A stretch of 43,237 nt of DNA from an uncultured bacterium (GTDB taxonomy: Bacteria; Desulfobacterota; GWC2-55-46). This document shows positions 20,116-34,021 of this stretch, piece after piece. The first letter of the stretch is position 1, and each line of letters begins with the position of its first letter. Under the pieces are notes generated by a model, which was given only the letters and a program-made list of their open reading frames with translations, searched no databases and had not been told where the DNA came from. The translations under genes were made by a program, and so were the position numbers. The stretch covers positions 1 through 43,237 of the forward strand of contig CAJPGC010000008.1 of the NCBI GenBank assembly GCA_905339405.1, given 5' to 3'.

Positions 20116-21285
20116 TTACGCCTGCTCTTGCTTCACGCCGCTCAAAAGCGGCAGTACGGTCTTTTTGATGTAGGAGACGTCGGCCTCGAGGCTCGCGGTC
20201 TCCTCGGAGCGGAGTATGTACGGGGCTATTGGTATGTCGCGCAGGAATGCATTCCTGAAGATATCTCCGTTTTTCCTTATGAAGTCTTCCGGGATGACGT
20301 TCGGGGCGGTGACGTCGTTCATCAGCGCCCAGGCCAGAGTCCATGCCCTGGCAACGTTGCTCAAGTCATAGCCGCCCCCGCCTAAAGCCACCCAGGGTAT
20401 CTCCATGGCGCGCAGGCGCTCTATGACCTTCTCGAAGCTGTTTGTCGTAAGGCTCAGGTGAGTTATGGGGTCTGTCTCAAAGGAATCGACCCCGAGCTGC
20501 GTGACGAGTATGTCAGGCTGGAACTCCTCAATGGCAGGCTGCACGACCTCGTCGAAGACCTTGAGGAAGACCGCGTCACCCGTAGAGGGCGGCAGGGGCA
20601 TATTGACCGCGAACCCCTTGCCCGAGTTTACGCCGATGTCGGTCACGAGCCCGGTGCCCGGGAAGAGCCACTGGCCGCTCTCATGGACCGAGAGGGTCAG
20701 GACCTTGTTCGTGTCGTAGAACGCGAACTCGACCCCGTCTCCGTGGTGGGCGTCGATGTCTACGTAGGCGACCCTTTTCCCGAGGCCCAGGAGATACTTT
20801 ATCGCTATGGCAGCGTCATTTATGTAACAGAACCCCGACGCCCTGTTGGGCATTGCGTGATGGAGCCCGCCCGAGATATTGAAAGCGACCTCAGCCCTGC
20901 CTTGGGCCACAAGCTCGGCCGCCTGCAAAGACGCCCCGGCGCAAAGCGCCGACCACTCATAGACCCCGTTGAAAACAGGGTTGTCCGCGTAGCCCAGGCC
21001 GTGCTGCGTGCCCCCCACAGGGATTATCCCGGTGTTCGCCTCTTTCAGGACCTTCAGGTACTCCGGCGTATGGAAAGAAAGCAGCTCCTCTTCGGTCGCG
21101 TTCCTTGCCTCGACAATCATTGACGAAGGCAATTTGTCGAGTCCCAGGGCCTCCATGAGCTCCGCCGTAAGGCGCAGCCTCACCGGCTTCATCGGGTGCT
21201 CTATCCCGTAATAAAAAGAGCCGAACCTTTCCGAATAGACAAAGGCGGCTTTGGCCTTCTTTTTCATCTTTCCGGGTCTATTCAT
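20116..21285 (-). CDS. Histone deacetylase family protein (AcuC-like)
   Basis: Zinc-dependent amidohydrolase of the arginase/deacetylase fold, class I HDAC/AcuC branch; 389 residues. The active-site tandem and metal ligands are visible in DIDAHHGDGVE, the charge-relay region in YINDAAIAI, the C-terminal metal aspartate in QLGVDSFETDP, and the glycine-rich loop in LGGGGYD. In bacteria such proteins deacetylate acetyl-CoA synthetase or small amides; the substrate here is unknown. The start overlaps the macB permease stop by eight bases with GAGG nine bases before it; a second ATG at 21267 is an alternative. Confidence 0.88.
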   Translation of the reverse strand: MNRPGKMKKKAKAAFVYSERFGSFYYGIEHPMKPVRLRLTAELMEALGLDKLPSSMIVEARNATEEELLSFHTPEYLKVLKEANTGIIPVGGTQHGLGYADNPVFNGVYEWSALCAGASLQAAELVAQGRAEVAFNISGGLHHAMPNRASGFCYINDAAIAIKYLLGLGKRVAYVDIDAHHGDGVEFAFYDTNKVLTLSVHESGQWLFPGTGLVTDIGVNSGKGFAVNMPLPPSTGDAVFLKVFDEVVQPAIEEFQPDILVTQLGVDSFETDPITHLSLTTNSFEKVIERLRAMEIPWVALGGGGYDLSNVARAWTLAWALMNDVTAPNVIPEDFIRKNGDIFRNAFLRDIPIAPYILRSEETASLEADVSYIKKTVLPLLSGVKQEQA

Positions 21286-22486
21286 ATCTGAGCGCCTCTA
21301 TCGGGTCCATGAGAGAAGCCTTCCTTGCCGGGTATATGCCGAATACCAGTCCCACGAGCGCGGAAAAACAAAAGCCTAGCGCGATAGACCAGAACGTGAT
21401 GACGGTATCCCACTCGCCGAAGCGTGAAATGAGAGAAGCTATGGCCACCCCTGAGGCTATGCCGATGAGCCCGCCGGAGACCGTTATGACGAGCGCCTCT
21501 ATGAGGAACTGCCTCAGGATGTCTTTTCTCCTCGCGCCCACGGCCATGCGTATGCCTATCTCCCTGGTCCTCTCGGTCACGGAGACGAGCATGATGTTCA
21601 TGACCCCTATGCCGCCGACGAGTAATGAAACGGCCGCTATGCCGGAAAGGAGCACGGTGAAGGTGCGTGTCGTCTCCTGCATGGCCATCATCATCTCCGT
21701 GAAGTCCCTTATGGTGAAATCAGACTCCGCTCCGGGGGCTATCCTGTGCCGGTCGCGCAGCACCCTTTCGATGCCCTCCTTGACCGAAGGGATGAGGGAC
21801 GCCTCCTCGACCTGTATGTTTATGTCGTTCACGTAGTCCTGGAAAAAGACCCTTCTCTGCGAGGTCGTCACAGGTATGAATATCTGGTCGTCAGGGTCCG
21901 AGAACGAGGTCTGCCCCTTCGTCTCCATGACCGCAATGACGGTAAAGGTCTGCCCCTCTATCTTCATCTCTTCGCCAACGGCCGGGCCTTCGCCGAAGAG
22001 CTCCTTCCTGACGGTGCTTCCTATGGCCGCGACCCTTCTTGCGAGCTTAATATCAGTCTGTTCGAAAAAACTGCCCTCCGCAACCTTAAAATTGTTTATT
22101 TCGATATATTCAGGGGTTGTGCCGGTAATGAGCGTCCCGGCGTTCCTGTTGGAGTACTTGACCTGGATGGAGCTGGCAACGACCGGGCTCAAAAACCTTA
22201 TGCCGGGCACCTCTTTTTTCAACGCCTCAGCGTCATCCAGCGTCAGGGTCTCGACCCGCCCGGTGCGCACGTGCCCCATCCTGGCCATGCCGGGCCTCAC
22301 GCGCAGCACGTTGGTGCCGAACCTGGACATCGATTCGATGACCTGCTGCTTCGCGCCCTCGCCGAGCGAAAGCATGGCGATTATCGCGCCCACGCCGATG
22401 ATGATGCCGAGCATGGTGAGCGAGGTCCTCATCTTGTTGGCGACGATGCCCCGGAAGGCTGTGCGGAGTATCTGGAAAAAGAGCAT
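21278..22486 (-). CDS. MacB-type ABC transporter permease
   Basis: Mechanotransmission-type ABC permease of the MacB/FtsX family. TM1 lies near residues 15-40 (MLGIIIGVGAIIAML), a periplasmic MacB_PCD domain follows, then three membrane helices in the FtsX domain (about 275-395) and the ending DPIEALRYE. Length 402. Its ATPase partner is encoded separately upstream, but an unrelated AT-rich gene separates the two. The ribosome-binding site before its ATG is now poor (AGG eleven bases away), unlike the strong GAGGAGG that follows the ATPase gene. Confidence 0.9.
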   Translation of the reverse strand: MLFFQILRTAFRGIVANKMRTSLTMLGIIIGVGAIIAMLSLGEGAKQQVIESMSRFGTNVLRVRPGMARMGHVRTGRVETLTLDDAEALKKEVPGIRFLSPVVASSIQVKYSNRNAGTLITGTTPEYIEINNFKVAEGSFFEQTDIKLARRVAAIGSTVRKELFGEGPAVGEEMKIEGQTFTVIAVMETKGQTSFSDPDDQIFIPVTTSQRRVFFQDYVNDINIQVEEASLIPSVKEGIERVLRDRHRIAPGAESDFTIRDFTEMMMAMQETTRTFTVLLSGIAAVSLLVGGIGVMNIMLVSVTERTREIGIRMAVGARRKDILRQFLIEALVITVSGGLIGIASGVAIASLISRFGEWDTVITFWSIALGFCFSALVGLVFGIYPARKASLMDPIEALRYE

Positions 22487-23240
22487 TGACTAAATACCTG
22501 AATATAATTTAAATTCTACGTTTCTTGGAAGAGATGTATCCGCATACCATAATTGGTCAACACTTGTGGGAATTCCTGCAGGATATGCATTTTTTATTGA
22601 CTCATACATAATGGAATCGTTCATTAATGCAAGGTCATTATTTTCAACCAAAAGCACTGTAGTAAAATTTTCTATTTTATATCTTTCAAGTTTTTTTGCT
22701 TTATCATCAAAAAGCGCTTTTATGCGAACAGGAAGAGTTTCATCGGATGGTACTGTTCTATAAATAAAAATACCCGGAGGTCTGTGGCTTGCTTTTGTAA
22801 TCTGTAAGGGAAATGGAACATCTGCAATTTTATCAATAGTGTGCTGTCCATCTGATAATGACGGCACCGTATCTAATATATAGTTCTTAATTGCCTTATG
22901 AATTTCTTTCCACCTTTGCCCTTTACTAACTGCGTCATGCGCTATAGTGATGGTAAGCCGAAAAAAAATCTTTTTTTCGAGCTCCTCCTTCAAACTGCCA
23001 ATTGCCTTCATAAACCAATCTGAGTTTCTGCGTTGTTCTCTAATTGTATCAATACTAGTGTGCTCTATAGCAAAACGGCCAGCAATTGCGTCAATTTCTC
23101 GCAAATTACGATTCCTATCCTCTGGCCATTCTTCAATATAAAGACTTGGGTAACCATTCCTTCTCAAAAAAACAATAAAAGCTTCGATTACATTCCTATC
23201 TGATTTTCCATGTATGGCTTCAATAACGATACTCAAGCAT
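22482..23240. mobile_element. Single-gene insertion bounded by 5-bp direct repeats
   Basis: The pentamer ATGCT (minus strand) occurs at 23236-23240, right after the ribosome-binding site behind the macB ATPase, and again at 22482-22486, where it is the start of the macB permease gene. The 749 bp between them are AT-rich and hold one gene. Removing the insert and one pentamer restores a normal operon junction with GAGGAGG directly upstream of the permease ATG. No transposase is encoded, so the mechanism of insertion is unknown. Confidence 0.5.
22490..23236 (-). CDS. Unrecognised AT-rich cargo protein, possibly nuclease-like
   Basis: I do not recognise a named family. The 248 residues are soluble with no signal peptide. 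An N-terminal pattern, IEEWPED then REIDAIAG and FAIEHTS (D49, E58, T60 after a hydrophobic strand), resembles the core strands of a PD-(D/E)xK nuclease, but with threonine where lysine is usual. The C-terminal part (FTTVLLVENNDLALMN, then VDQLWYADTS) looks like a conserved alpha/beta ending. It starts with TTG, five bases after GGAGG. Base composition is strongly AT-rich and ATT isoleucine codons are common, unlike the flanking genes. It sits between the ATPase and permease of a MacB transporter. Confidence 0.75.
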   Translation of the reverse strand: MSIVIEAIHGKSDRNVIEAFIVFLRRNGYPSLYIEEWPEDRNRNLREIDAIAGRFAIEHTSIDTIREQRRNSDWFMKAIGSLKEELEKKIFFRLTITIAHDAVSKGQRWKEIHKAIKNYILDTVPSLSDGQHTIDKIADVPFPLQITKASHRPPGIFIYRTVPSDETLPVRIKALFDDKAKKLERYKIENFTTVLLVENNDLALMNDSIMYESIKNAYPAGIPTSVDQLWYADTSLPRNVEFKLYSGI

Positions 23241-23245
23241 CCTCC

Positions 23246-23902
23246 TCACAGCACCACTTTCCCGTCCTTTATGTTTATGACCCTCTGCGAATACGCGGCG
23301 ACGTTCGGGTCGTGGGTCACGAGAATGAGGGTGGTGCCCTTCGCGTGGAGCCCGTCAAAGAGTGCCATTATCTCCTTGCCGGTGCGCGAATCCAGGTTTC
23401 CGGTAGGCTCGTCGCCAAGTATGATGGGAGGGTTCAAAACGATGGCCCTGGCGATGGCTACCCTCTGGCGCTCGCCGCCAGAGAGCTCGTTGGGCCTGTG
23501 CTTCATGCGCCGCTCCAAGCCGACCTCTTTCAGGGCCTCCTTCGCGAGAGCTTCTGAGCCGTCGATGCCAGCGTAGAAAAGAGGGAGCTCGACGTTTTCA
23601 ATCGCCGTGTGCCTTGCAAGGAGGTTGAATGACTGAAAGACGAAGCCGATGTTCCTGTTGCGCGCGGCGGCAAGGGAATCCTCGTCCATCGAATCGACCC
23701 TGACTCCGTTTAGCGAATAGCTACCCTCTGTGGGCCTGTCAAGGCAGCCGATGATGTTCATGAGGGACGACTTGCCGCTGCCTGAAGGGCCCATTATGGT
23801 GACGAACTCGCCCTTTTTGATGTCGAGGTCTACTGAAGAGAGCACCTCAACCGGGCCGCCCCCCATCGAATATCTCTTTGTAACGCCACGGAGCTCTATC
23901 AA
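23246..23902 (-). CDS. MacB-type ABC transporter ATPase
   Basis: ATPase of the MacB/LolD subfamily, 218 residues: Walker A GPSGSGKSS (38-46), FQSFNLLARHTAIENV after the Q-loop, LSGGERQR signature and GDEPTGNLD Walker B. Together with the downstream permease and upstream membrane-fusion and TolC-like genes it would form a tripartite efflux system driven by mechanotransmission. Its stop codon is followed at once by GAGGAGG, which now serves the inserted gene. Confidence 0.92.
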   Translation of the reverse strand: MIELRGVTKRYSMGGGPVEVLSSVDLDIKKGEFVTIMGPSGSGKSSLMNIIGCLDRPTEGSYSLNGVRVDSMDEDSLAAARNRNIGFVFQSFNLLARHTAIENVELPLFYAGIDGSEALAKEALKEVGLERRMKHRPNELSGGERQRVAIARAIVLNPPIILGDEPTGNLDSRTGKEIMALFDGLHAKGTTLILVTHDPNVAAYSQRVINIKDGKVVL

Positions 23903-23977: not shown

Positions 23978-24254
23978 ACTTTACGCGCTGCCGCGCAAAG
24001 TTGTTCTTTTAAAATACCATGTGACGCGGCTGCCGCCGCTCTCTGTAACAGGGCTATCTCGCCCCATCCCTGGGGCTTGACCCTTCGGGCCTTCTCGCTC
24101 ACGCTCGAAGTTCAATTTTTGCTATCCTGCAAAAATTGTCTACGCGCTTATCTATCCGTACCCACCCGCGAACCTCGCCCCTGAGGTCGCTTCGCTCCCA
24201 ACTTCCCCGGCTCGGTTCGCCACTTCCTCCTTGAGGCGCGCTCCGCCCTGTTAC
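23978..24254 (-). repeat. Dispersed repeat family R1, copy A
   Basis: The 417-bp gap between macA and the macB ATPase has no gene. Most of it is a repeat whose reverse complement matches 42635-42826: shared blocks include GGAGCGCGCCT, GGGAGCGAAGCGACCT, AGAGCGGCGGCAGCCGCG and GCGCGGCAGCGCG, in the same order. This copy is longer, with extra sequence containing a 9-bp inverted repeat (CAATTTTTG/CAAAAATTG, about 24113-24139). It separates macA from macB and is probably a non-autonomous mobile or structured-RNA repeat. Confidence 0.75.
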
Positions 24255-24319
24255 TGTGTCTGTGTTAAAAACACTATATTAAGCTCGTGATTGCAGATGG
24301 GACTTTATGGGCAGCCTGA

Positions 24320-25468
24320 TTAGAAGAACATTCCTCTTCGCCTTGGCTGACCGTTCCCGTTTGGCTTGGAGACGTCCGAGGTGACGACCTCGTCTCCATC
24401 CTTAACGCCGCTTCTTATCTCGGTCGAATCCCCGTCGGTTGCTCCCGTGTCTACCTCGACGAACTCGGGCTTCCCGGCCTTCAAGACGTACACGCCAGCC
24501 TTCGAGCCCTTCGACTTCACCGCCTCCCTGGGCACGAGGAGCGCATCCTTTCTTATCTCCGTAAGTATCTTCACGTCGGCTGTCATGCCCGGCATTAGGA
24601 GCGCTTTTTTCTCATCGACGACCTTTACAACCACATCGAATACCGTGACAGTCCTCTCTGTCCTGCCCTGCGGGGCGACCCTTTCCACGACTGCTTCGAA
24701 AGCCTTTTCGGGCAGCGCGTCGACAGTGACTCTGGCCTTCTGCCCCGGCCTTATCGCAGCTATGTCTACCTCGTCGACCCCGGCAGTAACGAATATCCTG
24801 TCGAGGTTCGCCATGCTGAATATCTGCGTGCCCTCCGAGGCCGACGATATTGTGGAGGATATCACCTGCCCCCTGTCCACGAATTTTTTCAATATCGTCC
24901 CGGTGAAAGGGGCCCTGATGGACGTGTCCGCAAGCCTCTCCCTGGCCTCTTTCAGGGCCTCGTTCGAATGCATCAGCTCGGCTTCGGCAATGCTCACCTC
25001 GGTTGAAGCCTTCTGAAAGGCTATATCTGCGTCTTCGAGCTCCTGCCTTGAGATTATCCCGTCCTCGAAGAGCTTATTCTGCCTGGCGAGCTTCACGTCG
25101 AAGTCCTTCAATGCTATCTTCGCCCTCTGGAGCCTTGCCCTGGCCCCAAGTAGAGCTGCCTCCGCCTGCTTCGTCCTGGCCTCCTCTGTCTCCGGGTCGA
25201 GCTTCACGACGACTTCGCCTTTTTTTATGAGGTCGCCGGCGTTATTCGTAAACTCTATTATCTCGCCCCCGGCCTTGCTCTTGACTATGACCTCTATCTC
25301 CGGGTTCACGGTGCCGTTCGCCATCGCCTCAAGCCGGAGCTCTCCTCTTGCGGCCTTTGCCGTCTTCATCGGCTCGGCGTCTATTGGCGCCTTGGCGCTA
25401 AAAAAATAATAAGCTCCGGCCGCAATAATTATTACGGCGATAGCCGCCATGAAAAACCGTTTCTTCAT
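24320..25468 (-). CDS. Efflux RND/MacA-type periplasmic adaptor subunit
   Basis: Membrane-fusion protein linking the inner-membrane transporter to an outer-membrane channel. An N-terminal membrane anchor (6-24) precedes the lipoyl half-motif (AGGEIIEF...GDLIKKGEVVVKLDP), a helical hairpin (about 95-185), the second lipoyl half (IRAPFTGTILKKFVDRGQ) and beta-barrel and membrane-proximal domains to the end. 382 residues is the usual MacA length. Its ATG overlaps the tolC-like stop by four bases. The tail is basic (PRRRG). Confidence 0.9.
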   Translation of the reverse strand: MKKRFFMAAIAVIIIAAGAYYFFSAKAPIDAEPMKTAKAARGELRLEAMANGTVNPEIEVIVKSKAGGEIIEFTNNAGDLIKKGEVVVKLDPETEEARTKQAEAALLGARARLQRAKIALKDFDVKLARQNKLFEDGIISRQELEDADIAFQKASTEVSIAEAELMHSNEALKEARERLADTSIRAPFTGTILKKFVDRGQVISSTISSASEGTQIFSMANLDRIFVTAGVDEVDIAAIRPGQKARVTVDALPEKAFEAVVERVAPQGRTERTVTVFDVVVKVVDEKKALLMPGMTADVKILTEIRKDALLVPREAVKSKGSKAGVYVLKAGKPEFVEVDTGATDGDSTEIRSGVKDGDEVVTSDVSKPNGNGQPRRRGMFF

Positions 25469-31419: not shown

Positions 31420-31710
31420 TTACCTGTCGCCCGGGAGCTTGTAGCCCTTGCCGGCGAACTGGATATTCGCGGGGTCGTCGCACCTCGGCGGGGAGACGGC
31501 GTGGACTCCTCCGCACTTGGGGCACTTGCCCACGAAGGTCTTGAGGAGGAAAGGCTCTCCGCAACCCTGGCACTTGGCATTCAGGCCGCCGTCCGGGATG
31601 GGGGCGTTCCTCACCGCGCCGTCGTGCGCGTTATAAACAAACTCTACCAACTCGAGACCTTCTGAAAACGGGCCGCCACCGGCGGGCCCGCAGCTTCCGC
31701 AGCTACCCAT
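31420..31710 (-). CDS. Zinc-ribbon protein of unknown function
   Basis: 96-residue protein starting at the ATG 31708-31710, which follows a perfect AGGAGG at five bases; a start 30 bases upstream is in AT-rich leader sequence. The N-terminus is MGSCGSCG, then a possible zinc ribbon CQGCGEPF...GKCPKCG (two CxxC pairs) and a late cysteine. The order glycine-cysteine-rich head, VYNAHDGAVRNA segment, ribbon suggests a metal-binding protein. No function can be assigned. Confidence 0.8.
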   Translation of the reverse strand: MGSCGSCGPAGGGPFSEGLELVEFVYNAHDGAVRNAPIPDGGLNAKCQGCGEPFLLKTFVGKCPKCGGVHAVSPPRCDDPANIQFAGKGYKLPGDR

Positions 31711-31834
31711 GATACCTCCTGAAAAATTAAAATATAACAAAATTCAACTTCATGATACTAAAAAAATCGCTTTTGTTCAATATTTATCGAACCATATGGC
31801 ACAAAAAACCAAAAGCAAGAAACACCGATTTTCC

Positions 31835-31864
31835 TTGCCAGCACCCCGGTTCATTTTGTATATT
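31835..31864 (+). promoter_or_regulatory. Candidate promoter of the restriction island
   Basis: TTGCCA (31835-31840), an 18-base spacer and TATATT (31859-31864), 34 bases before the first gene of the island. Lies in AT-rich sequence, so chance matches are likely. Confidence 0.4.
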
Positions 31865-31898
31865 TTAGACTAAACATTCTCTGGGCGGGGAAGCCAAA

Positions 31899-32354
31899 GT
31901 GCGCGCTCTAATAGAGCAGATTAATGAGAAAAAATGGTGGCACTCGCCGCCCGAAGACCCCAATGCCTATAGAAAAAGAGGCATTTTCCTTTCTTCATCC
32001 TATCGGGAATGCGAGTTTTACGGCCGTCCATTGGATGAACCTGTTTGGGTGCATCTGTCAAATCCTCTGATCGATACCGAAGAAAATATAATCAAAATTA
32101 TTTTCGGCGCGGCCTCGCTCCAAATGGAGGTTTACAAAACTTTATTGAGTAATGCTGCTGAAATTTGTTTGGAGAAGAGATTCAATTTAGATAGAGAATT
32201 GTTCAAGGCTGCCAAAAAATCGGGCTATGATGCGATTGCTCTCGTAAGCGAAATTGGAATTAGAAAGATAAAAGAACAAAGCAGACTCCCGAGAAGTGTT
32301 GAGCTAAACATTTTCGATATAAAGAAATCAAGTTTGAGGGACAGAAATGCCTGA
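31899..32354 (+). CDS. Predicted ADP-ribosyltransferase-fold protein of the restriction island
   Basis: 151-residue protein with no close relative I can name. Its pattern fits the phage/PolyVal-type ADP-ribosyltransferase fold: WWHSPPE at the first strand (H15), GIFLSSSYRECEFYG (Y35, Y41) where these proteins have a FT-x-A-x-YG segment, VWVHLSNPL matching the V-x-L-x-NPL strand, GYDAIAL matching GYDG-x-I, and a final VELNIFDIKKS like E-x-VVFDP-x-QIKS (E135). H15, one of the tyrosines and E135 would be the catalytic triad. It starts with GTG at 31899 without a strong ribosome-binding site. It overlaps the methyltransferase gene by eight bases. Composition is AT-rich. Toxin or DNA/protein modifier roles are inference. 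Confidence 0.65.
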   Translation: MRALIEQINEKKWWHSPPEDPNAYRKRGIFLSSSYRECEFYGRPLDEPVWVHLSNPLIDTEENIIKIIFGAASLQMEVYKTLLSNAAEICLEKRFNLDRELFKAAKKSGYDAIALVSEIGIRKIKEQSRLPRSVELNIFDIKKSSLRDRNA

Positions 32355-33324
32355 TTGCAGGTTGGCTAAAAAAACCAAAAAAAAGAAAAAAGAAGTTTTG
32401 TATGTAGACCCAGAAAGCAATAGAGAGCTTTTCAATTTCGAAGAGACTGCCGAGTACGGAGAAAGACCTTATTCTGTTTTTTTCAATAATCCCGAACATT
32501 CTGTAAAGCTCCTCAAAGGAAACTGCATTGAGGTTTTAAACAGGGCGAGAGAGAACAGCGTTGACATGATTTTCGCTGATCCTCCGTATTTCCTTTCAAA
32601 CGGCGGTATTACCTGTCACGCAGGCAAAATGGTCTCTGTCAATAAAGGCAAGTGGGATGTCTCGAAAGGTGTTAAGGAAAACCATGAATTCAATCTTGAA
32701 TGGCTAAAAGCGTGTCAGCGCGTTCTAAAACCGAATGGAACTATATGGGTTTCAGGTACAACCCATATAATTTACTCCATTGGATTTGCCATGCAGGAAC
32801 TTGGCTTCAAAATACTGAATGATATTATCTGGTATAAAAGGAACGCAGCACCAAACCTTTCCTGCCGTTATTTTACCCACTCTACTGAAATTGTGCTCTG
32901 GGCAGCCAAAGATAAAAAGAGCAAACATTATTTCAACTACCCTCTTATGAAGGCCTTTAACAAAGGCAAACAGATGAGGAATCTCTGGCAACTTACCGAA
33001 AATGAAGAAGCACAGACAGTAGATAATGTCTGGACTATTTCATCACCGCCGCCAATTGAAAAACGGTTCGGCAAGCACCCTACGCAAAAACCACTTGAGC
33101 TTTTAAAGCGTATCGTTCTTGCCTCTACCAAGGAAAATGACCTTGTCCTTGATCCTTTTTGTGGCAGCTCGACTACTGGCATCACTTCTCTATTGCTGAA
33201 CAGGAAGTATGTAGGAATAGATTTGGAAGAAAGCTATCTTGAGCTTTCAAAAAAGAGAATTGGAGAAGCTCTGTCCAAGCCTCGTCTTTTTGATATTTCT
33301 AAAAACCTAAAAATGGTCGATTGA
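32347..33324 (+). CDS. Beta-class DNA adenine methyltransferase
   Basis: Site-specific DNA methyltransferase, 325 residues. Catalytic motif IV DPPY (78-81) precedes the target-recognition region, followed by HPTQKP (244-249) and the AdoMet motif DPFCGSSTTG (269-278); this order defines the beta class, and DPPY predicts N6-adenine methylation. The N-terminus has a lysine-rich stretch (9-15). The recognition sequence cannot be read from the protein; beta-class enzymes include GATC and GANTC methyltransferases. ATT isoleucine codons are common, unlike host genes. It overlaps the ART-fold gene by eight bases and is four bases from the endonuclease gene. Confidence 0.93.
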   Translation: MPDCRLAKKTKKKKKEVLYVDPESNRELFNFEETAEYGERPYSVFFNNPEHSVKLLKGNCIEVLNRARENSVDMIFADPPYFLSNGGITCHAGKMVSVNKGKWDVSKGVKENHEFNLEWLKACQRVLKPNGTIWVSGTTHIIYSIGFAMQELGFKILNDIIWYKRNAAPNLSCRYFTHSTEIVLWAAKDKKSKHYFNYPLMKAFNKGKQMRNLWQLTENEEAQTVDNVWTISSPPPIEKRFGKHPTQKPLELLKRIVLASTKENDLVLDPFCGSSTTGITSLLLNRKYVGIDLEESYLELSKKRIGEALSKPRLFDISKNLKMVD

Positions 33325-33328
33325 GCCA

Positions 33329-33943
33329 ATGGAACGGACAGAAGCTTTAAAAAAAATAGCTTTACTCATAGGAAAAGATTTAAGGAAATTAGCACATGAA
33401 CATAAAATAACCGTTTTCAGGGAGGGAAAAACAAATAAGGGTTGGGCGGGACACACTATTGAAAGATACTTGGGACTTCCCTTAAACTCCTCTCAATCTC
33501 CAAATTTTGGCTCTTGGGAATTAAAAACAATTTCTTTGAAGCACCTTAAAAACAAGGATCTATCTATTAAAGAAACAATGGCTATTACAATGATCGATCC
33601 TTATAATGTCGAAAGAACTAAATTCGAGGATAGTCATTTACTTACAAAATTGAAAAAAATCGTTATAGCTGCACGAATTTGGGAAGGAAAAGACGAAAAA
33701 AGCTCAATGCTACATTCAGTAAGAACTTTCGATTTGGATAATCCCGAAATTTACGAGCAAATAAAAGCTGATTATGACCTTGTAAGAGAAGCTATCATCA
33801 AAAAGGGATTTTCCTCCTTAACAGGCAGGATGGGCGTTTTTATACAGCCAAGAACAAAAGGTCCCGGTCATGGAAGCACTTCAAGAGCCTTTTACGCAAG
33901 AACATCTTTCTTAAAGAAAATTTTCCATATCCAACAACTTTGA
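33329..33943 (+). CDS. MutH/Sau3AI/MvaI-type restriction endonuclease
   Basis: 204-residue nuclease beside a methyltransferase, hence the likely restriction partner. NKGWAGHTIERYLG (36-49) resembles the MutH segment KGW-x-G-x-LLE-x-LG; NFGSWELKTI (59-68) gives the core E64-x-K66; RAFYARTSFLKKI near the C-terminus matches RGFYLR-x-SF of MutH and Sau3AI. The spacing before E-x-K is that of MvaI (D-x4-E-x-K), but the acidic residue is replaced by N59. That may weaken activity or the true aspartate may be elsewhere. E45 could serve as the helix glutamate. No ribosome-binding site is evident; translation is probably coupled to the methyltransferase. Confidence 0.8.
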   Translation: MERTEALKKIALLIGKDLRKLAHEHKITVFREGKTNKGWAGHTIERYLGLPLNSSQSPNFGSWELKTISLKHLKNKDLSIKETMAITMIDPYNVERTKFEDSHLLTKLKKIVIAARIWEGKDEKSSMLHSVRTFDLDNPEIYEQIKADYDLVREAIIKKGFSSLTGRMGVFIQPRTKGPGHGSTSRAFYARTSFLKKIFHIQQL

Positions 33944-34021
33944 TTTATTTTTTCGCTCCTCTACGACTCTCTTAAAAGCGCCTTCGTCTAACAAGGCAAT
34001 GTCTTTTTTTAAACTCCCTTT

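Follow-up and report, generated by a model that had tools for sequence, protein, structure and literature searches.

Probable lateral acquisition of a small accessory gene at the variable ATPase-permease junction of a MacB-type operon

The window, that is, the whole 43,237-nucleotide stretch of DNA analysed here, contains the genes of a MacB-type transporter with one additional gene, hereafter the cargo gene, lying between the ATPase and the permease. The ATPase and permease were assigned by family search, and the upstream membrane-fusion subunit was named from reading its translation and not from a family search. This subunit probably belongs to the same operon. The features discussed below are as follows.

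21278..22486, minus strand: MacB-type permease (MacB_PCD and FtsX)
22482..22486, minus strand: right ATGCT copy, formed by the conserved start of the permease (ATG CTC)
22490..23236, minus strand: cargo gene, TTG start, 248 amino acids; predicted PD-(D/E)XK-like fold with invariant I48-D49...E58-H59-T60...Q68
23236..23240, minus strand: left ATGCT copy, which shares its last base with the cargo TTG and whose ATG is in another frame than the cargo gene
23241..23247, minus strand: GAGGAGG, ribosome-binding-site-like, overlapping the ATPase stop and 4 nt before the cargo TTG; GGAG is also present in the congener G003 (TGAGGAG)
23246..23902, minus strand: ABC transporter ATPase of the MacB/LolD type
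24020..24280, plus strand: one copy of the genus' dispersed intergenic repeat, with a related piece in the G003 ATPase-permease gap
24320..25468, minus strand: membrane-fusion (MacA-like) subunit, upstream

All three genes from ATPase to permease are read from the minus strand. The ATPase stop TGA (23246-23248) is followed by GGAGG (23241-23245) and ATGCT (23236-23240), the last base of which is shared with the cargo TTG (23234-23236). At the other end, the cargo stop TAG (22490-22492) is followed by TCA and then by the permease start ATGCT (22482-22486); 749 bp separate the two ATGCT copies. An integron gene cassette at a secondary site, which a single, promoterless-looking open reading frame might bring to mind, is close to negligible as an explanation and was rejected, since the cargo stop is only 3 nt (TCA) away from the permease ATG, which provides no room for an attC. 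The scan for promoters and terminators returned a single terminator-like site on the plus strand; promoter-like matches count for little where the DNA is AT-rich.

The composition of the cargo gene (GC 0.355, third-position GC 0.27) differs from that of the permease (0.574 and 0.78) and the ATPase (0.580 and 0.75). A GC change-point fit places the edges of the AT-rich stretch at 22469 (22460-22491 within 2 lnL units) and at exactly 23236. These edges nearly coincide with the ends of the open reading frame, and thus the foreign stretch is essentially the cargo gene itself. The initial annotation had described a TTG-started, AT-rich single gene at this place and had seen no transposase, and on both points it was right: searches of Pfam, NCBIfam, PADLOC and PHROGs returned no transposase, mobility gene or secure family for the cargo. 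No PADLOC profile matched it up to E 10, and phrog_3712 matched it weakly (E 0.006). The gene occurs once in its own genome. An assembly chimera could be suspected in a fragmented draft of 60 contigs, but the insert is clean, lies inside a 43-kb contig and has its edges at gene boundaries, which makes such an artefact highly improbable.

The permease is present in 36 of 59 relatives, and its gap to the ATPase was measured wherever the locus was usable. Gap lengths lie between -4 and 676 bp, and no relative with a measured gap has the cargo gene there. The gene is also missing from all three congeners. In G002 and G003, two of the congeners, the permease ATG comes 113 and 380 bp, respectively, after the ATPase stop, and the two spacers are not significantly similar. 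The dispersed repeat at 24055-24148 of the window is matched, with 82% identity, by positions 18-107 of the spacer in G003. The window's own genome contains 64 matches to this repeat region, whose copy in the window sits upstream of the ATPase, and G001-G003 have copies as well. The unlike spacers of G002 and G003, together with the dispersed repeat in the latter, indicate that the junction repeatedly takes up sequence in this genus. As a separate observation, the repeat is modular: one half (about 36-121 of the query) and the other (about 120-257) are found apart from each other.

The foreign origin of the cargo gene is well supported by its composition, by its absence at the same locus in relatives and by the scatter of its homologues, each a single gene, over unrelated loci. 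The gene thus combines the foreign composition and the absence at the same locus that characterize a horizontally acquired operon insert. Conversely, its intact reading frame, its strand (that of the flanking operon genes) and its tight spacing are what would be expected of an old operon member that the relatives have lost. The strongly foreign third-position GC and the lack of the gene in every measured gap of the relatives render this explanation extremely unlikely.

How the gene arrived is a different matter. The initial annotation had proposed insertion precisely at the permease start codon, bounded by ATGCT direct repeats. A foreign insert does lie between the ATPase and permease, and ATGCT does stand at both edges; the precision and the duplication read into them do not hold up. 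When two random 14-mers are drawn from this window, they have a 5-mer in common 10% of the time; for two 30-mers the figure is 48%. Furthermore, the right copy coincides with a conserved start of the permease, several orthologues of which begin ATGCTC. Therefore, the ATGCT repeat by itself is no evidence of a target duplication. The empty site predicted from a precise insertion, TGAGGAGG-ATGCTC, occurs in none of the relatives read, the congeners having the 113- and 380-bp gaps instead.

A non-autonomous transposable unit, moved by a transposase acting in trans and leaving ATGCT as a 5-bp target duplication where the permease starts, would account for the matching edges. It could also draw on the ends of the insert, which read inward TGAGTA (22487-22492) and TGACTA (23230-23235) and match as an inverted repeat in 5 of 6 bases. 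This end match is short, however, and was spotted after the fact; the 5-bp match is at chance level (P 0.10-0.48), one copy of it is the conserved start codon, and no relative read has a one-copy empty site. Nor does the unit recur, since the genome holds a single copy and the closest homologue is 56% identical. We therefore regard transposition of this kind as unlikely. A 10-bp match, TAAATACCTG, between 22491 and 23953 was treated as chance.

The initial annotation also held that the ancestral permease had used GAGGAGG, that the newcomer now uses it, and that the permease was left with a poor site. GGAGG directly abutting an ATG, with zero spacing, is too close for normal initiation. In the supposed ancestral arrangement GGAGG would touch the permease ATG, so that former use of this site by the permease is not borne out. 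The predicted anti-Shine-Dalgarno pairing of the permease (-3.8 kcal/mol) is within the range of its orthologues (-1.7 to -8.2); a weak permease site is thus usual and need not stem from the insertion. What survives is that the newcomer has a strong site, as the predicted pairing of the cargo (-12.2 kcal/mol) is the strongest of eleven window starts tested; the theft from the permease does not. G003 reads TGAGGAGCGGGG after its ATPase stop, yet its permease ATG is 380 bp off. Hence, the purine-rich stretch appears to be older than the cargo gene. Judged from these sequences, translation of the cargo probably relies on purine-rich sequence that already followed the ATPase stop before the gene arrived.

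Six homologues share I48-D49-A50-I51-A52-G53, A56-I57-E58-H59-T60, Q68 and other residues. The first ten residues of the window protein are not part of what the family conserves and are modelled with low confidence, which fits a start adopted in the upstream sequence. AlphaFold2 models of two members reached pLDDT values of 83 and 85. For the window protein, the best VIA match is SfsA (4dav; Z 6.7, rmsd 4.7, 137 aligned residues), and the next has a Z of 4.2. The second member matches CdiA-CT (4g6v; Z 7.6), SfsA (4dap; 7.2), PaqCI (6.8) and NucC (4.8), and at lower scores Vsr (4.1), NotI (3.5) and BamHI (3.4); acetyl-CoA carboxylase rows, with Z up to 6.6, are found amid these nuclease matches. 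All of these scores are below Z 8, the value taken as secure. Foldseek returned no match at E 0.001 for either model and no usable match against viral models.

The PD-(D/E)XK superfamily is recognised by an alpha-beta-beta-beta-alpha-beta core and a catalytic D ... (D/E)XK. In the cargo family, D49 and E58 are invariant on successive strands, T60 occupies the position of the canonical lysine of (D/E)XK, and Q68 opens the next helix. SfsA has been assigned to the PD-(D/E)XK superfamily with the motif ID-EVK, and replacement and migration of the lysine are known in this superfamily (PMC1189080). Considering the concentration of this superfamily among the matches of two models, the acidic residues on successive strands and the glutamine-opened helix, a PD-(D/E)XK-type fold is our best guess for the cargo protein. 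The likeness to SfsA (PF03749) extends from the best structural match to an ID half-motif followed by an E-x-x half-motif on the next strand. The differences are a Z of only 6.7, the lack of a significant sequence match and threonine in place of lysine; also, there is no evidence in the cargo protein of the N-terminal OB domain of SfsA. On these models, the cargo probably represents an undescribed protein family with a nuclease-like predicted fold.

Homologues of the cargo are rare. They were found in three of 63 genomes of the class, its own included, in its own and three others of 395 genomes of the phylum, and in one further draft, of Syntrophobacteraceae. They are 37-56% identical to the cargo, none exceeding 56%, and are lone genes at unrelated places; searches of plasmid, phage and viral-contig sequences yielded none. 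An apparent match in G315 was rejected as a chance match to an RpoN-like gene. One homologue lies downstream of an HNH gene (L002), one, with a split frame, downstream of a response regulator (L003), one near FRG and addiction-module genes (L005), one between RNase II and a DUF3047-like gene (L036), and three follow a DUF433-DUF5615 pair (L037; L038, with stops; L105). Two of the eight family copies are broken, and several are AT-richer than their flanks (e.g. L036, GC 0.376 vs 0.53-0.58).

At two of these loci, the place occupied by the homologue holds other genes in close relatives. Between RNase II and the DUF3047-like gene, G401 carries a cargo homologue, G451 a cold-shock-like gene, G445 a Phd/YefM-like antitoxin and G448 an antitoxin-toxin pair (the DUF3047, antitoxin and toxin names come from reading translations). 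The place after the DUF433-DUF5615 pair is taken by a cargo homologue in G364, G286 and G462 and by an unrelated membrane protein in G381. G462 and G381 share the pair and the downstream tRNA-Asn and tRNA-Gln, and their DNA similarity ends at the end of DUF5615 and restarts at a terminator-like sequence before tRNA-Asn. Downstream of the response regulator at the G026 locus, the spacer has unrelated content in four sister genomes. At this locus and in the RNase II-DUF3047 gap alike, the unrelated contents leave no empty site at which a duplication might be scored. Read from these comparisons, the family pattern is one of slots with changing small genes.

Further observations concern the same loci. 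The gap upstream of the DUF3047-like gene has a different small gene or genes in each sister genome (L089, L090, L091 and L094). L105 (G462; 1172-2875) and L106 (G381; 1169-2882) delimit a sharp-edged single-gene slot with swapped contents. In L103 (G364), TTCGTGGCTCCC, located after a terminator-like hairpin just downstream of the cargo homologue, resembles the tRNA-Asn edge of L105 and L106. No tRNA is predicted at this place in L103, and TTCGTGGCTCCC is possibly the remnant of an integration site.

A nuclease-like predicted fold, sporadic single genes tight against a neighbour's stop codon and the two broken copies could suggest a selfish gene resembling a homing endonuclease: encoding a PD-(D/E)XK nuclease, it would invade gaps between genes without breaking them and decay afterwards. 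However, the sites have no evident common target, in relatives they are allelic only where the DUF433-DUF5615 pair co-travels, and threonine replaces the catalytic lysine. Since unrelated genes fill the same slots, it is the slot and not the gene that is constant. We thus consider this explanation very unlikely. Little probability attaches to the related idea that a solo PD-(D/E)XK-like family is a minimal self-spreading unit, which would home into stop-start gaps and take the local ribosome-binding site without a transposase.

We favor, with a probability of about 0.72, the lateral acquisition of a single foreign accessory gene into a length-variable, insertion-tolerant junction between a MacB-type ATPase and its permease. 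The gene would have arrived laterally and settled in the hypervariable spacer, with both neighbours left intact. Its insertion would most likely have proceeded via illegitimate or repeat-assisted recombination rather than transposition with a 5-bp target duplication. Most likely, it is translated as the middle gene of the operon from the purine-rich sequence after the ATPase stop. From structure comparison and the neighbours of its homologues, the protein most likely acts on nucleic acid as part of an exchangeable repertoire of the defence or toxin-antitoxin kind. The cargo gene is therefore best read as a small accessory gene in ordinary turnover at a junction that is hypervariable.

Insertion of horizontally transferred genes into existing operons has been stated as known (PMC2259305, with reference to the work of Omelchenko et al., 2003, about mosaic operons). 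As in those cases, a single foreign gene lies here between host genes of one operon with its neighbours intact; what differs is that the junction is hypervariable in the genus and the cargo family undescribed. The neighbours are an ordinary ATPase and MacB_PCD-FtsX permease, as in other split MacB-type operons, except that a foreign gene separates them. In accessory-gene hotspots with turnover of toxin-antitoxin or defence genes, as in the slots of the homologues, sister genomes hold different small genes; unlike such hotspots, no integrase or defined island was seen here, and the slots are down to one gene. The remaining interest is in the undescribed family and the one-gene slots. The cargo case illustrates that a foreign gene can settle in an operon without breaking its neighbours, its translation probably relying on sequence that was there before. 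It also draws attention to a small, uncharacterised family of nuclease-like genes that recurs in exchangeable one-gene slots. For asking how single genes swap so precisely, the G462/G381 and RNase II-DUF3047 gaps are better suited than the macB junction.

Elsewhere in the window, positions 31600-33950 form a second AT-rich, foreign-looking block, which looks like a restriction-modification island and includes the following genes.

31899-32354: unknown gene, upstream of the methylase
32347-33324: N6/N4 DNA methylase
33329-33943: MutH / MvaI-BcnI-like endonuclease, after the methylase
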